Assembly (NCBI RefSeq): GCF_030814815.1
Contig: NZ_JAUSVR010000003.1
Location: 62,001 to 126,000 of the forward strand
Direction: 5' to 3'
Length of the DNA: 64,000 nucleotides
Source: Ancylobacter amanitiformis
GTDB taxonomy: Bacteria; Pseudomonadota; Alphaproteobacteria; Rhizobiales; Xanthobacteraceae
Both the position numbers and the translations under genes were made by a program. Position 1 is the first letter of the stretch. Each line of letters opens with the position of its first letter. The notes under the pieces were generated by a model. It worked only from the letters and a program-made list of their open reading frames with translations, made no database searches and was not told where the DNA came from. This document shows, in pieces, positions 6,189 through 61,710 of the stretch.

Positions 6189-6467
6189 TTACGCAACGGT
6201 AGATCGCATCGAAACGCCATGACCGGCATGTTCCGGCACGTCGCGCCCGCCCGTCGGATTGCGGAAATGGGCGAGTACATAGAGACGGATCGCTGATGAC
6301 AGGTTGCCCTGGTTGCGACCCGCATCGATGGACGCGACGATTTCGGACAAGGTGGTGCGCCGGTTCGCGGCGATTTCCTTGAGAGCGTCCCAGAACTGGT
6401 CTTCAAGGCTCACGCTGGTCTTGTGACCCGCGATGACGATGGACCGCTTAACCACGGGACTCTTCAT
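6189..6467 (-). CDS. Ribbon-helix-helix domain protein
   Basis: This 92-residue protein has a ribbon-helix-helix core: a beta-strand RSIVIAGHKTSVSLEDQFW followed by helix DALKEIAANRR and helix LSEIVASIDAG..NLSSAIRLYVLAHF. This is the RHH_4 form found as a one-domain protein in many Hyphomicrobiales, generally next to DUF4169 and near fumC and sspB, as here. It is presumably a DNA-binding repressor, but no target is known. Its start overlaps the DUF4169 stop as ATGA. The final 20 residues look unstructured. Confidence 0.8.
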   Translation of the reverse strand: MKSPVVKRSIVIAGHKTSVSLEDQFWDALKEIAANRRTTLSEIVASIDAGRNQGNLSSAIRLYVLAHFRNPTGGRDVPEHAGHGVSMRSTVA

Positions 6468-6652
6468 GACTCGCCCTCTCTTACTCGCCGATGTCCGTCC
6501 AGCGAGGTCTGCCTTTTGCGTTCCTCGGCCGCTTCGGCCTGGCGCTGCACCTTCGTGCGGCCAAACTCCAAACGTCGCGCAGCCGCTGTTTGTTCCGCCG
6601 TGTCACGGGCAAGGCGTTTGCGATGCCGGTGAAGATTAACGATCTCGTTCAT
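6464..6652 (-). CDS. DUF4169 family small basic protein
   Basis: This 62-residue protein has the sequence MNEIVNLHRHRKRLARD..., with NLHRHRKRLAR and LEFGRTK, which is the signature of DUF4169. It is strongly charged and probably helical throughout. Function is unknown; it is co-translated with the ribbon-helix-helix gene through a four-base overlap. A promoter is expected in the AT-rich stretch upstream, on the far side of position 6652. Confidence 0.8.
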   Translation of the reverse strand: MNEIVNLHRHRKRLARDTAEQTAAARRLEFGRTKVQRQAEAAEERKRQTSLDGHRRVREGES

Positions 6653-7099
6653 AGATGTTCGCCTCGGAGTTCATGGTGTGACGCCCTCGCTCCGGTCCGT
6701 CAATGGGCGCCGTAAACACTTGAAATTAAAAAGTCATACTATCTTATGTATAATATGTTCACTGGGGCAGCATCGTGGCCGATGCAAAGCGCAAAACGGT
6801 ATTTCGGTAGGTATAATCATTCAGTATTATTTTGAATTCGACATTATGTTTGTTTAGACGCCTTCGTAGCGGTAATAAATTGCGCGGAGTGCCCAAAAAG
6901 GTACCAGTCTACGCAGATGGGCCGGGATCGATCACGAACTCGTGAGGATCTCCCGGCCTCCTCGGTGATCGCGCCCGCCGGCAGTACCGCCCGAGGTCGC
7001 ATTTGCCCGCGCAGGGGCGCGTGCTAAACGGACCGCGCCTGCGAGTTTCACGTTCCATTGCGCCCCTTTTGTGGATGCCGATCCGAGAGATCCCGACCC
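6653..7099. other. Intergenic region with an AT-rich island between divergent DUF4169 and fumC
   Basis: No gene is seen. Bases about 6712-6880 are clearly AT-rich against the surroundings and contain promoter-like boxes in both directions, for example TTAAAA at 6726 and TATAAT at 6749 with 17 bases between them on the plus strand. Further right a GGCCGGGA...TCCCGGCC inverted repeat (about 6922-6958) could fold. Confidence 0.5.
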
Positions 7100-11520: not shown

Positions 11521-11552
11521 CAACCGGACGTATGAGGCCCTATATTCGATTT

Positions 11553-11885
11553 GCCGGCGCAAGCCGGATATGGCGATAAACGGAAATCGGAATAAACTCT
11601 TCGGACCCGGGGGCAGTACCCGGCGCCTCCACCAGAGCCCGTCCGGGGCGGGCTGCGGCGGGGGCGAAACAGGATCGACGAGAGCGTAAAGGGTCTTCTT
11701 TCGCCCGGCATGGTACCGCCGTCATCGGACCAAACATATAGTTGCCAACGACAACTATGCTCCGGTTGCTCAGGCCGCGTGAGCGGTTTGATCTCTGGGA
11801 AATAAGTCCAAGCGGGTAGCACCGTAAGGCGGGGTTCGCAGGCACCTGGCAACAGAAGCCTGCACTTACTTCCTTCGACCGGCTG
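11553..11885 (+). ncRNA. ssrA: Two-piece (circularly permuted) tmRNA
   Basis: The acceptor piece comes first: a CCGGC-GCAA-GCCGG hairpin near 11553, then the T-arm-like CCGGGGGCAGTACCCGG and the 3' end CGCCTCCACCA at 11624-11634. About 25 bases later the coding piece starts with GGGGGCG at 11660, which pairs with CGCCTCC of the acceptor end, followed by AAACAGGATCGAC. The resume codon and tag are at 11744-11782 and encode ANDNYAPVAQAA and a stop. This order, acceptor before coding piece, is the alphaproteobacterial permuted form; the linker would be excised. The exact 5' and 3' ends are estimates. A TATATT box at 11541 is a plausible -10. The tag ends in AQAA, fit for ClpXP with SspB, whose gene is next. 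Confidence 0.9.
11744..11782 (+). other. tmRNA tag-peptide reading frame ANDNYAPVAQAA
   Basis: Twelve sense codons and TGA inside the tmRNA coding piece. The ANDNYAPVA part is the form usual in Hyphomicrobiales and carries the SspB contact region at its start and the ClpX degron at its end. Confidence 0.9.
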
Positions 11886-30968: not shown

Positions 30969-33395
30969 ATGGTCCTTCGACCCGCCTATCGCTTCGCGGC
31001 CCTGCTGGCCGCCGCGACATTCCTCACCGCGCCGGCCCTGGCGCAGCAGCCGGCCGCGCCCGCCGCGCCGGCGGCCACCAGCGCCGCGCCGTCCGCGATT
31101 CCGCCCGGCCTCGCCTGGCCGCGCAGCTTCGATCTCGGCGACAAGGTGCTGCAAATCTACCAGCCGCTGATCGAGCAGTGGAACGGCGACCAACTGGCCG
31201 GCCGCGCCGCCATCGCCATCGGCCCCAAGACCGGCACGCCGACCTATGGCATCGCCCGTTTCACCGCGCGCGTCGCGGTCGACAAGCCCTCCAAGCTCGC
31301 CCAGCTCGGCCCGATCCAGATCACCAAGGTCGATGTGCCGACCGACCCGACGCAGGACATGGCGCTGATGAGCGCGCTGCAGTCGCACATTCCCGCCGGT
31401 GGCATCACGGTCGCCCTCGATCATCTGCTGACCAGCTATGCCGCCTCCAAGGAACTGACCAAGGCGGAGACGCAGCCGGTCGACAACACCCCGCCCAAGA
31501 TCATCTTCGCCGACAAGGCGACCATCCTGGTGCTGGTGGCCGGCACGCCGGTGGCCAAGCCGATCGACGGCGTGACCGGGTTCCAGCGCGTCGTCAACAC
31601 CCATCCGCTGATCCTCGTGGATGCCTCCGGCGGCTATCACCTGCAGGCGGCCGGCAGCTGGTATCAGGCCAAGGCGATCGAGGGGCCGTGGACGTTGCAG
31701 CGCGCGCCCGATCCTTCGCTCGAGGCGGCCGGCAGCACCGCGAACTATGAATCGGCGGCGGTCTCGCTGCTGCCGGCAAACGGCCAGAAGCCGGCGACGC
31801 CGCCGGCCGTGGTGGTCTCCACCGGCCCGGCCGAACTGGTCATCACCGACGGCGCCGCGCAGATGGTGCCGGTGAGCGGCACCTCGCTGCTGCGCGTCGG
31901 CAATGCCGACCACGCGATCATCCTCGACCCGTCGAACAACCAGTATTACGTGCTGATTTCCGGCCGCTGGTTCCGCGGCCCCGGCCTCAGCGGGCCGTGG
32001 GCCTTCGTGCCGGGCGCCAGCCTGCCGGCGGATTTCAAGAAGATCTCGCCGACCGATCCGGTCGCCAACGCGCTGGTGGCCGTGCCTGGCACGCCGCAGG
32101 CGAAGGAAGCCGCCATCGCCGCGACCGTGCCGCAGACCGCGACCATCAAGCGCGATACCCAGCTCACCATCCAGTATGATGGCGGCACGCCGCGTTTCGA
32201 GCCGATCAAGGGCACGATCCTGTCCTATGCGGTGAACACCCGCACCCCGGTGATCAAGCTCGACGCGACGCGCTACTATGCCCTGGTGCAGGCCGCATGG
32301 TTCGTGGCCAACGCGCCGACCGGGCCGTGGTTCGTGACCGACACGGTGCCGTCGGCGATCTACACCATCCCAAGTTCCTCGCCGCTGCACTATGTCACCT
32401 ATGTGCGCGTCTACGCCTCGACCGCCGACGCGGTGACGGTCGGGTACACGCCCGGCTATCTCGGCGTGATGCTCGAACCGGGCGGCACGGTGGTCTACGG
32501 CACCGGCTATGACTGCGTCGGCTATATCGGCGCCTACTGGTATGGCTGCCCGGCCTCCTACGGCGCCAATGCCGCCTTCGGCTGGACCGACGGCTTCGCC
32601 TTCGGCTTCGCGGCGGGCTATCCCTGGGGTGCCTGGGGCCCGGCCTGGGGGCCCTATTGGGGGCCTGGCCCGTGGGGCGGGCCGTGGGCGGGCGTGAATG
32701 TCAACGCCACCAACATCTACGGCCAGTGGGGCGCCAATGCCGCCTATGCCCATGCCTGGGGCTACAACCCCTGGACCGGCAATGAATGGGCCGGCCGCGC
32801 GGCGAGCGGCGTCACCGCCAACGGCACCGCGTTCCAGGGCCGTTCGGCCGCTGCCTTCAACCCGTGGACCGGCAATTATGCCGGCGGGCGCGAGGGCTCC
32901 TTCTTCAACCCGGCGACGGGTGCCGAAGGCGCGGCGCGCGCGGGTGTCACCGGCAATGCCTATACCGGCAATTTCGCCGCCGGCCGGCAGTCGGAAGCCT
33001 ATAACCCCACCACGGGCGTCGGCCATGCCTCCGAGACCGGCGTCACCGACACCAACGGCCATGTCAGCGTCGACAGCCGTGGCGTCGCCGGCAATGCGCG
33101 TACCGGCAATGCCGTGGCGTGGAACAATGGCAACGTCTACACCGACCATGACGGGTCGATCCACCAGTACGACGCCAATAATGGCTGGCAGCACCAGACC
33201 ATTGACGGCTGGCAGCACGACACCGACGCGGCGCAGACCGACCGGCTCGACCAGCAGCGCCAGTTCCAGAGCTACGGCGACCAGCGCGTGGAGAATTTCG
33301 CCCGTGGCGGCGGTTATGGCGGCGGCGATTTCAATGCCGACCATTTCGGTGGCGGCGATTTCGGCGGCGGCTTCGGCGGCGGTTTCCGCCGCTGA
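30969..33395 (+). CDS. Large exported Trp/Gly/Asn-rich protein with repeated GPW modules
   Basis: I do not recognise this family with certainty. The 808 residues start with a signal peptide (...FAALLAAATFLTAPALAQQ). Three modules with the pattern Y-L-x-G-x-W-(Y/F)...GPW occur near residues 218-248, 324-350 and 434-460. Next is a segment very rich in Tyr, Trp, Gly and Pro (505-585), then repeats of NPWTGN/NPATG/NAYTGN to about 720 and a Gly/Phe/Asp C-terminus (GGGDFGGGFGGGF). Similar proteins have been labelled carbohydrate-binding family V/XII; surface or matrix binding is a guess. It is monocistronic with a strong terminator. Confidence 0.7.
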   Translation: MVLRPAYRFAALLAAATFLTAPALAQQPAAPAAPAATSAAPSAIPPGLAWPRSFDLGDKVLQIYQPLIEQWNGDQLAGRAAIAIGPKTGTPTYGIARFTARVAVDKPSKLAQLGPIQITKVDVPTDPTQDMALMSALQSHIPAGGITVALDHLLTSYAASKELTKAETQPVDNTPPKIIFADKATILVLVAGTPVAKPIDGVTGFQRVVNTHPLILVDASGGYHLQAAGSWYQAKAIEGPWTLQRAPDPSLEAAGSTANYESAAVSLLPANGQKPATPPAVVVSTGPAELVITDGAAQMVPVSGTSLLRVGNADHAIILDPSNNQYYVLISGRWFRGPGLSGPWAFVPGASLPADFKKISPTDPVANALVAVPGTPQAKEAAIAATVPQTATIKRDTQLTIQYDGGTPRFEPIKGTILSYAVNTRTPVIKLDATRYYALVQAAWFVANAPTGPWFVTDTVPSAIYTIPSSSPLHYVTYVRVYASTADAVTVGYTPGYLGVMLEPGGTVVYGTGYDCVGYIGAYWYGCPASYGANAAFGWTDGFAFGFAAGYPWGAWGPAWGPYWGPGPWGGPWAGVNVNATNIYGQWGANAAYAHAWGYNPWTGNEWAGRAASGVTANGTAFQGRSAAAFNPWTGNYAGGREGSFFNPATGAEGAARAGVTGNAYTGNFAAGRQSEAYNPTTGVGHASETGVTDTNGHVSVDSRGVAGNARTGNAVAWNNGNVYTDHDGSIHQYDANNGWQHQTIDGWQHDTDAAQTDRLDQQRQFQSYGDQRVENFARGGGYGGGDFNADHFGGGDFGGGFGGGFRR

Positions 33396-58735: not shown

Positions 58736-58895
58736 CCGCCACGGCGCCAGCGTCAACCTCTCCGCGCATGGCCGACCGTATCGCGACGGGAAGGGACCCC
58801 CGCCTTTACCGATCGTTAACCCTGTGGGCGGGGTGGAACGCCAATGCCGGCGCGCGGCCTTCACGTTCGTCCTTTGTTCGGGTACGCCCTAGGCC

Positions 58896-59411
58896 ATGGC
58901 TGCATCCGCGATTCGCATTCTCGGGCTCGATCCCGGCCTCCGCCGCACCGGCTGGGGGGTGATCGACACCCTCGGCACGCGGCTCACCTTCGTCGCCTGC
59001 GGCACGGTGATGCCGCCGGAGGACGCGGCGCTGGCGGTGCGGCTGGCCTTCCTGCATGCGGAACTCGCCAAGGTGCTGCGCGCCCACGCGCCGGACGAGG
59101 CGGCGGTGGAGGAAACCTTCGTCAACATGAACCCCGCCTCGACGCTGAAGCTCGGCCAGGCGCGCGGGGTGGTGATGCTCACCCCCGCCATGGTCGGGGT
59201 GCCGGTCTCCGAATATGCTGCGCTGCTGGTGAAGAAGACCGTGGTCGGTGCCGGGCGGGCGGAGAAGGGGCAGATCCGCCTGATGATGAAGGTTCTGCTG
59301 CCGCAGGCCGATTTCGAGACGGACGACGCGGCGGACGCCCTTGCGGTGGCCGTCACCCACGCGCAGCATCGCGGCATGGCGGCGCTCAAGGCACGGGTGG
59401 CCGCGCGGTGA
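58896..59411 (+). CDS. ruvC: Holliday junction resolvase RuvC
   Basis: This 171-residue endonuclease cuts Holliday junctions. The four acidic residues lie in [26 protein letters not shown] and [14 protein letters not shown]. It is first in the ruvC-ruvA-(orphan)-ruvB unit, 13 bases before ruvA. Length is typical. Confidence 0.96.
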
Positions 59412-59424
59412 TCGGCAGCGGGAC

Positions 59425-60042
59425 ATGATCGGAAAACTCAGGGGCGTGGTGGACAGCTACGGCGAGGATCACATCATCCTCGACGTGCAGGGCGTGGGCT
59501 ATCTCGTGCACTGCTCGGGCCGCACGCTGCAGGCGCTGCCGGGCATTGGCGAGGCGGCGACGCTGTTCATCGAAACCTTCGTGCGCGAGGACATGATCCG
59601 CCTCTACGGCTTCGTCTCGCAGGCCGAGAAGAGCTGGTTCATGCTGCTTCTGAACGTGCAGGGCGTCGGCACCAAGGTCGCGCTCAACGTGCTGTCCATC
59701 CTCTCGCCGGGCGAACTCGCCAATGCGGTGGCGGTGGGCGACAAGGCGATGGTGGCGCGGGCGAACGGGGTGGGGCCGAAGGTCGCCGCCCGCATCGTCA
59801 TCGAGCTGAAGGACAAGGCGCCGGGCTTCGCCAGCATCGATCCCGTCGTCGCCGGGCTCGCCGGCTCGATCGAGGATCGCAGCGCGCCCGCGCCGGTGGC
59901 CGATGCGGTCTCGGCGCTGGTCAATCTCGGCTATGCGCAGCTGCAGGCCAGTGTCGCCGTGGCGGCCGCGCTGCGCGAGGCGGGGGACGGGGCGGACGCT
60001 GCCCGGCTGATCCGTCTCGGCTTGCGGGAGCTGGCGAAATAA
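59425..60042 (+). CDS. ruvA: Holliday junction DNA helicase subunit RuvA
   Basis: This 205-residue protein binds the junction as a tetramer. [32 protein letters not shown] is domain I, the helix-hairpin-helix parts [16 protein letters not shown] and [19 protein letters not shown] follow in domain II, and the C-terminal domain III ([16 protein letters not shown]) contacts RuvB. ATG 59425 begins the domain. The gene usually next to it, ruvB, is displaced by an AT-rich gene of 206 codons. Confidence 0.96.
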
Positions 60043-60056
60043 GGGAGGCGAGACCT

Positions 60057-60677
60057 ATGGGCCTGAAGATCACGACAATCGAGCGGCTTCCGATTGCAAC
60101 TGATCGGGATTATTACATCTATTTTCTAGATTATGGTTGGGAAGAGCCTCTTAGCCAAGCTCTATATAATAATTTTGATATAGTCGCTTCTTTTGCAGCT
60201 GAAAACAAGTCTTTGCTAATATCCGGTCTTTACCGAAGGGAATTTGCAAATGAAATCTTAAGTTGGCATCACATAAATGGTGAGAATGCCGAAAAGTTTC
60301 TTCCTGCGGTGATGGTTTCAGATTGTGACCCCAGAGCTTTAGCAGGTTCGAATGAATCTTTCTCGTCTGAGAAATCCTATTTAAATAGATCTACCCGGAA
60401 TCCGATTCCAGCAAGATTTATTTTAATTCCTCTGCGAGAAGTATGTAAGACACAAACTGATGTCGTGGATGTTCTCGGTAAATTGATGAATGACATTCGA
60501 CATAAGAGAGAGATATGCAATTTTGAATTGCAGAATATTTTAAATCATCCTGAGCGTGGTCTCTCTGAGGCATTTGTTCTCCGGCCGTCACTATATGGAG
60601 TTGGTGTCGATTTGAAAGAATTGTGGCGACTCGGTTCAAATTATTTCAAGGCGCGGCGGACGGGAGCCGATGACTAA
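60057..60677 (+). CDS. AT-rich gene of unknown family between ruvA and ruvB
   Basis: I do not recognise this 206-residue protein. Its body (about 60100-60640) is about 40% G+C by hand count against some 68% around it, with codons such as TTA, AAT, ATA and AGA that neighbours avoid, so it looks acquired. The first 40 and last 30 bases have native composition. It has a good ribosome-binding site (GGGAGGCGAGACCT before ATG) and its stop lies eight bases inside ruvB (ATG 60670). There is no signal peptide or membrane helix. Notable segments are [47 protein letters not shown] and [15 protein letters not shown]. Three cysteines are seen. Confidence 0.85.
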
Positions 60678-61710
60678 CCCCCCCCGCCGTCTCGTCACTC
60701 CGGACAAGCGCGTGGATGATCCCACGGAAGCGTCGCTGCGGCCGCAGAATCTGGTCGAATTCGTCGGGCAGGAGCAGGCACGCGCCAATCTGCGGGTGTT
60801 CATCCAGGCCGCGAAGGCGCGGGGCGAGGCGCTGGACCATGTGCTGTTCGTCGGTCCGCCGGGGCTGGGCAAGACCACGCTGGCGCAGATCGTGGCGCGC
60901 GAGCTGGGGGTCGGCTTCCGCTCGACCTCCGGCCCGGTCATCGCCAAGGCGGGGGATCTGGCGGCGCTGCTGACCAATCTCGAAGAGCGCGACGTGCTGT
61001 TCATCGACGAGATTCACCGCCTCAACCCGGCGGTGGAGGAGATCCTCTATCCCGCGATGGAGGATTACGAGCTGGACCTCATCATCGGCGAGGGGCCGGC
61101 GGCGCGCTCGGTGAAGATCCAGCTGTCCAAATTCACGCTGGTCGGCGCGACGACGCGCTCGGGCTTGCTGACCACGCCGCTGCGCGACCGTTTCGGCATC
61201 CCGATCCGGCTGAATTTCTACACGATCGACGAGCTGGAGCTGGTGGTGACGCGCGGCGCCCGGGTGCTGGGCATTCCCATCTCCAAGGACGGCGCGCGCG
61301 AGATCGCGCGGCGCGCGCGCGGCACGCCGCGCATTGCCGGCCGGCTGCTGCGCCGGGTGCGCGACTTCGCCCTCGTGGCCGGCAAGGACATCATCGACCG
61401 CGCGGCGGCGGATCACGCGCTGTCGCATCTGGAGGTCGACAGTTCCGGCCTCGACCAGATGGACCGGCGCTACCTCACGGTGATCGCCATGAATTATGGC
61501 GGCGGGCCGGTGGGCGTGGAGACCATCGCCGCCGCGCTCTCCGAGCCGCGCGACGCGATCGAGGAGATCATCGAGCCCTATCTCGTGCAGCAGGGCTTCA
61601 TCCAGCGCACCCCGCGCGGGCGCATGCTCACCGCGCACGCCTTCAAGCATCTCGGCCTCGCCGCCCCGCCGAGCACCAGCCCGATGCCGCTGTTCGACGA
61701 CGGCGAGTAG
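60670..61710 (+). CDS. ruvB: Holliday junction DNA helicase motor RuvB
   Basis: This 346-residue AAA+ ATPase drives branch migration. Walker A is [13 protein letters not shown], Walker [10 protein letters not shown], sensor 1 [11 protein letters not shown], arginine finger LRDRFGI, and the winged-helix C-terminus ends [18 protein letters not shown] 60670 gives [14 protein letters not shown] and overlaps the upstream orphan by eight bases, so its translation now depends on ribosomes ending the orphan. Length is normal. Confidence 0.97.

Follow-up and report, generated by a model that had tools for sequence, protein, structure and literature searches.

A foreign gene between ruvA and ruvB of Ancylobacter amanitiformis, possibly a mobile anti-phage gene taken up by an SOS operon

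The described systems nearest to the locus reported here are the thioredoxin superfamily, integron cassettes and single-gene mobile defence genes, effector-associated domains (EADs), and the Mza, AbiD and AbiL systems. Its regulation can be compared with the SOS response of Caulobacter crescentus. The available text of a study of this species (PMC9578287) lists GTTCN7GTTC as its SOS box and reports that its ruvCAB operon is upregulated. We analysed a stretch of 64,000 nt of contig NZ_JAUSVR010000003.1 of Ancylobacter amanitiformis (the window), in which a gene of foreign composition lies between ruvA and ruvB, in an operon behind a conserved box of this type. Our best explanation is that a piece of mobile conflict cargo, probably anti-phage, was taken up by an SOS operon. 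Taken as a whole, we give this explanation about even chances.

The captured gene and its place in the ruv operon

The operon runs on the + strand and consists of ruvC (58896–59411, GC3 0.90) and ruvA (59425–60042, 205 aa, GC3 0.91), both named by recognition, followed by ruvB (60670–61710). Between the latter two, on the same strand, an intact open reading frame with an ATG start is found at 60057–60677. It encodes 206 residues, and we refer to this mobile orphan gene as the captured gene. The spacer from the ruvA stop codon to its ATG is 14 nt. GGGAGG, read from the sequence as the likely ribosome-binding site, occupies 60043–60048 of the + strand (−14 to −9 from the ATG). The stop codon of the captured gene lies inside ruvB with an overlap of 8 nt, and the translational coupling of ruvB to the captured gene is visible in the sequence. 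Both the ribosome-binding site and the end inside the ruvB start had been described in the original prediction. The overlapped first codons of ruvB differ from those of the sister species, in which the protein starts with MTTKRLVTP.

The original prediction also described a gene of about 40% G+C in an operon of about 68%, and the measured values are close to this. The G+C content of the captured gene is 0.414 over its whole length and 0.39 in its core, against a window mean of 0.682 (540-nt stretches, sd 0.033). The window minimum for such stretches, 0.383, falls at the captured gene, and the next lowest value elsewhere is 0.522. This lowest stretch outside the captured gene (0.52) lies at 6372–6911; a tmRNA gene is found at 11542–11873 of the window. 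By codon position, the captured gene has GC1/2/3 of 0.50/0.38/0.36, compared with GC3 of 0.90–0.91 in ruvC, ruvA and ruvB. At its own base composition, a frame would stay open for 206 codons after a given start with a chance of about 1.4e-6. It is present as a single copy in its genome.

The GC-rich ends of native character that had been claimed are found only in part. At the 5′ end the G+C content is only 0.50 over the first 60 nt, and these encode the N-terminus of the protein's own family (MGL...P) and therefore do not come from the host. At the 3′ end, G+C rises to 0.64 over the last 33 nt, for which a host origin is at most possible; only the final few codons extend beyond the ends of the relatives.

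Could the captured gene be a non-functional remnant in decay? It is foreign and recent, and one relative (in genome G1234) is frameshifted. However, its 206 codons are intact, it has a ribosome-binding site, and its protein aligns with the relatives over almost the full length, which makes decay highly improbable.

Among 30 genomes of the genus, ruvB is found in all 30 and the ruvA–ruvB junction was read in each, and the captured gene is present in only one (1/30). Since it is missing from the sister species and its composition is sharply different, its recent acquisition by horizontal transfer is supported, and the recent transfer that had been claimed stands. The ruv loci of close relatives had been named as a place to look for the same gene at normal composition; none of the 29 carries it.

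The same spot holds another gene, gene X (142–150 aa), in ten of the 29 relatives (L017–L019, L021, L026, L028, L032, L038, L040, L042). In the remaining 19, the distance from the ruvA stop codon to the first aligned ruvB codon is 5–133 nt. The normal adjacency of ruvA and ruvB that had been assumed thus applies to 19 of the 29 relatives and fails in the ten with X between. Gene X has normal G+C, and its presence and absence are scattered over the tree of ruvA and ruvB. No Pfam match was obtained for the one copy scanned (L017). Seven X-less genomes (L022, L023, L027, L029, L030, L044, L045) have a spacer of 85–133 nt, and an ACCTCAC-type stretch is common to five of these long-spacer genomes by eye (L023, L027, L029, L030, L045).

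The nearest relative, with RuvA 97% and RuvB 99% identical, carries X at this very spot. In a tree of ruvA and ruvB, it is the sister of the window genome with support 1.00. Identity between the two runs upstream up to the ruvA stop codon and resumes downstream in the first ruvB codons. In the window's own genome, X was not convincingly found elsewhere (best E 0.0137). By synteny and tree, it is well supported that the captured gene replaced a resident X after the split from the nearest sampled species. An exchange for X, and not a plain insertion, is the simplest reading of these sequences. The original prediction was accordingly right about the position between ruvA and ruvB, but the plain insertion it assumed does not fit, as the sister and nine more of the 29 relatives have X there.

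The junctions were examined for traces of the exchange. The idea that the captured gene has kept the end of X at its 3′ end was rejected: against the ten X rows this end scores 6–12, compared with shuffle means of 7.0–8.1 and maxima of 12–17. The same 3′ end beats all 300 shuffles against the X-less L027 (13) and L029 (14), that is, in two of 29 rows. That the 3′ end shows no significant likeness to X but exceeds shuffles against two X-less rows counts against our explanation of the locus. A direct repeat at the two junctions was also rejected as weak, since 2.5% of shuffles reach the same score and each copy contains a ribosome-binding site. Neither a clear element end nor a target duplication is seen at the junctions. 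No attC core (RYYYAAC or GTTRRRY) occurs on either strand of 59901–60800, and the window copy does not classify as an integron cassette.

The LexA (SOS)-type box GTTCN7GTTC is found at 58865–58879 of the + strand and starts 31 nt before the ruvC ATG. The operon promoter has a LexA-type operator, as in the SOS regulon, at this place. In 20 of the 20 genus relatives fetched (of 29), a LexA-type box stands at −30 to −32 before ruvC. With two matches to the motif in the window against 1.36 expected by chance, it is the conserved position and not the count that carries weight. The second match lies at 32831–32845 and may be due to chance. Inside the captured gene no promoter-like match is found on the + strand. 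One is present inside ruvA on the + strand (59450–59477), and a weak terminator-like match lies in the captured gene on the + strand (60559–60571; two in the region against 1.7 expected). Either of these could make the captured gene less dependent on the ruvC promoter. Because of the conserved box before ruvC, the captured gene is probably SOS-expressed and co-transcribed with the ruv operon. A role in the damage response had been guessed originally, and the conserved box of the operon favours it, SOS expression being a prediction here.

An undescribed family and its genomic settings

Profile and sequence searches found 11 further distant members, so the captured gene is not an ORFan. Two of them belong to the same order (3/397 genomes including its own, after two chance matches were dropped), and the same two were found among 15 genomes of their family. 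The two dropped matches of the order search, L004 and L005 (E 0.005 and 0.009), have no family-like open reading frame at the place, and in L005 the match is antisense to a different kind of ORF (509 aa). One member came from a draw across the phylum (2/398 including its own), and two more were found in the order of that phylum-draw genome (3/300 including that genome). A class search matched 5/274 genomes, which are three new members, the known G1234, and G1424 with the tail only. Furthermore, one member is found in a Flavobacteriales record and two in viral contigs.

Elsewhere the searches were negative. A class draw of 385 genomes gave only the window's own copy, and no family match was found in plasmids searched by protein or in E. 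coli genomes searched by DNA only. Three family queries against 50,697 phage records gave nothing better than E 0.6, and two phage records with about 29% identity at that E value were excluded from the members.

Identity to the captured protein is 23–43% in seven members and 38–41% for L059–L061, the latter by a pairwise method that gives 36% and 29% where the other alignment gives 32% and 23%. The conserved stretches of the family include MGL...P, DYGWxEP, SWHxING, LPA and LxPxxxGxG. The member in G1144 is strongly diverged and that in G1234 is frameshifted. Amino-acid identity exceeds nucleotide identity in four of four pairs compared, with dN of 0.14–0.30; dS could not be computed in the compared pairs and is probably saturated.

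The captured protein has no match in Pfam, NCBIfam, PHROGs or PADLOC, and for these four libraries the statement that it matches no family holds. Wider scans of members gave chance-level matches only in Pfam (8 members), PHROGs (4) and NCBIfam (11, best E 0.062). Against PADLOC-DB 2.0.0, the 11 members gave no match to a defence model (best E 0.027), which counts against a defence reading. Literature searches on a gene intervening between ruvA and ruvB, on thioredoxin-fold or tail-bearing defence, on integron defence and on SOS-controlled defence returned, among the matches listed and in their available text, no paper on the family. SNaCT was considered as a lead as well, but the available text of PMC12169576 contains no sequence for comparison, and no claim is based on it.

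Of the 11 other members, nine are placed in a mobile or defence setting, a count from selected neighbours that were scanned, with no random-gene control. The relative L011/L015 is an integron gene cassette, with attC-like sites on both sides (L015 7494–7548 and 8143–8196) and an integrase in the locus. The attC-like pattern was written after seeing the L015 sites and has no match in 200 shuffles. The integrase ORF of L015 (11543–12532) has Pfam phage-integrase domains, and its identity as IntI was assigned by eye. One relative adjoins a tail-fibre assembly gene at the phage tail end of a viral contig. Another is beside a tyrosine integrase and an AbiLi/AbiLii-like gene pair, and one lies 143 nt after a tRNA-Ser. 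Downstream of MzaC/D/E-like genes one more is found, and a further one has a DpnII-like nuclease gene on one side and AbiD, followed by type III restriction, on the other. Three have transposases or transposase-like ORFs nearby: one beside an IS91-type transposase, RelA/SpoT, NA37 and a DNA methylase, one beside an AlbA_2/Schlafen gene and a transposase-like ORF (the latter by eye), and one beside IS4-type transposase-like ORFs (by eye). L006 has only a ParB-like neighbour, and L013 is flanked by apparent housekeeping genes, named by eye. Two neighbours in L051 scanned with PADLOC gave no match. Many relatives being in mobile elements or beside defence genes, the earlier guess of phage exclusion is favoured, with the function itself predicted from such neighbourhoods.

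These settings also bear on whether the captured gene serves the cell at all. It might be selfish or counter-defence cargo that benefits mobile elements, such as a phage-excluding moron or an inhibitor of host defence, with the chromosomal copy a recent chance passenger. The phage tail-end and integrase settings agree with this, and so does the rare and patchy distribution (1/30 in the genus, 3/397 in the order, 2/398 in the phylum, its own copy only in the class draw of 385). However, other members form an integron cassette or adjoin chromosomal defence genes, the captured gene is intact and fitted to the translation of ruvB, and 50,697 phage records gave nothing better than E 0.6. We consider selfish cargo unlikely, though well short of negligible.

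No RuvA, RuvB or RuvC is found in the stretches around the 11 members (5.6–18 kb each; tblastn, E up to 1), and the same tblastn recovered the window's own ruvA, ruvB and ruvC. Selection for co-expression with the branch-migration machine had been inferred originally; a functional link to that machine is not supported by this result. A partner of RuvAB that modulates branch migration or Holliday-junction processing would account for the operon position and the ruvB overlap, but the spot was already variable in the genus (X in 10/29, none in 19/29) and the stretches around the 11 other members gave no ruv match. Such a partner is highly improbable, and a branch-migration role of the captured gene is not supported.

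Predicted fold and C-terminal tail

Two AlphaFold2 models were built from four-row alignments, for the captured protein (pLDDT 60.6) and for the L006 protein (64.3). They suggest a thioredoxin-like core at residues 17–148 (60105–60500, + strand) that lacks CxxC, with low-confidence loops at residues 59–76 and 96–117. Among the 50 PDB matches listed per model, most are of thioredoxin type, with other kinds of protein too. The best Foldseek E values against the PDB are 0.019 for the captured protein and 0.0081 for the L006 protein; the models are weak and no fold match reaches E 0.001. In a viral library, the L006 model agrees with the thioredoxin type at a best E of 0.0097, and PDB sequence searches gave nothing convincing. 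The profile and structure tools that had been recommended thus gave no profile match, and a possible thioredoxin-like fold in models of low confidence.

The thioredoxin-type fold matches, none of which is significant, would be explained if the captured protein were a member of the thioredoxin family that serves in stress or redox reactions of the housekeeping type. However, it has no CxxC, its only cysteines being at positions 90, 130 and 154, and the rare and patchy distribution also speaks against such a role. We regard this role as improbable. No strongly hydrophobic segment is found in the protein.

Behind the core, residues 175–203 (60579–60665, + strand) form a C-terminal tail with LxPxxxGxG and a short basic stretch, modelled at low confidence. 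The same tail is found on other proteins. In G1424 it ends two ORFs (E 3.8e-5 and 2.0e-4 per genome; 274 genomes), which were detected by a family profile from which they had been left out. In one locus, L058, it ends a 311-aa ORF with COR-A and COR-B domains. In the other, L057, it is on a separate 107-aa ORF that has no Pfam match and adjoins a Roc/COR-A/COR-B ORF. L057 and L058 are two Roco-type loci, and their tail is almost identical to that of the family. In G1414 the tail ends a 156-aa ORF (E 1.4e-5 per genome; 142 genomes), the L058 tail being part of the profile in this case. All these G1424 and G1414 matches are modest once corrected for the genomes searched. The 156-aa ORF (L078:1114–1584) combines an unrelated N-terminus with the same tail motif, and a 268-aa ORF comes after it.

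A tail profile run over 20 genomes found only the captured gene's own copy in its genome and none in ten genus relatives. With no second tail protein, its genome therefore has no docking partner of that type. The amphipathicity of the tail helix is not significant in seven of eight tails. Searches for further proteins of this kind can start from the common C-terminal tail.

Proposed explanation and comparison with known systems

We propose that X was displaced from its position between ruvA and ruvB by a mobile accessory gene that belongs to an undescribed family. The captured gene probably encodes a single-gene conflict protein, directed most likely against phages or mobile elements. The thioredoxin-like domain of this protein, lacking the redox motif, would be a binding or sensing module, accompanied by a variable loop. 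The C-terminal tail, also present on a COR-domain (Roco-type) ORF, may dock the protein to a partner or assembly. Standing behind the conserved LexA-type box, the captured gene would probably be transcribed with the repair operon. DNA damage, as in phage infection or prophage induction, would then induce it, while ruvB would stay translated. The operon would provide a damage-inducible promoter, and the captured protein need not touch Holliday junctions. For the captured gene, both the defence function and the SOS expression are what we infer from sequence and context.

A more specific idea follows the family as a whole. It may be an undescribed single-gene conflict family that combines a redox-motif-less thioredoxin-like sensor or binding module with a portable tail common to Roco-type (COR-domain) proteins, one mobile copy of which was wired into the SOS regulon on replacing a gene of a repair operon, so that defence would be switched on by DNA damage. 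We put this forward tentatively, as a possible but doubtful reading. As the family is outside all four libraries and some members adjoin known defence systems, it is directly clonable and testable. The locus is also a naturally occurring example of a mobile gene that seems to have gained ready-made damage-inducible control on replacing one gene of a core repair operon.

The PADLOC systems Mza, AbiD and AbiL are neighbours of three relatives, and the captured protein matches none of their models. With the thioredoxin superfamily (PDB 5yry, the APR1 redox domain, and 4gwr, a PDI P5 domain), the captured protein shares, in models of low confidence, the predicted order of strands and helices. It differs in the lack of CxxC, the long insertions and the extra C-terminal tail, and has no match at E 0.001 or better. 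From integron cassettes and mobile defence genes of the single-gene kind (integron defence papers as referenced in PMC13092281), the window copy differs in lacking both an attC-like core and a clear element end, whereas one relative does lie between two attC-like sites with an integrase ORF in the locus. Compared with the EADs, as far as the available text of PMC7159879 and PMC8195603 describes them, the family tail consists of the C-terminal ~20–30 residues and not of a globular helical domain, and the captured gene's own genome has no second tail protein. What it has in common with EADs is a short module carried on otherwise unrelated proteins, one of them of Roco type.
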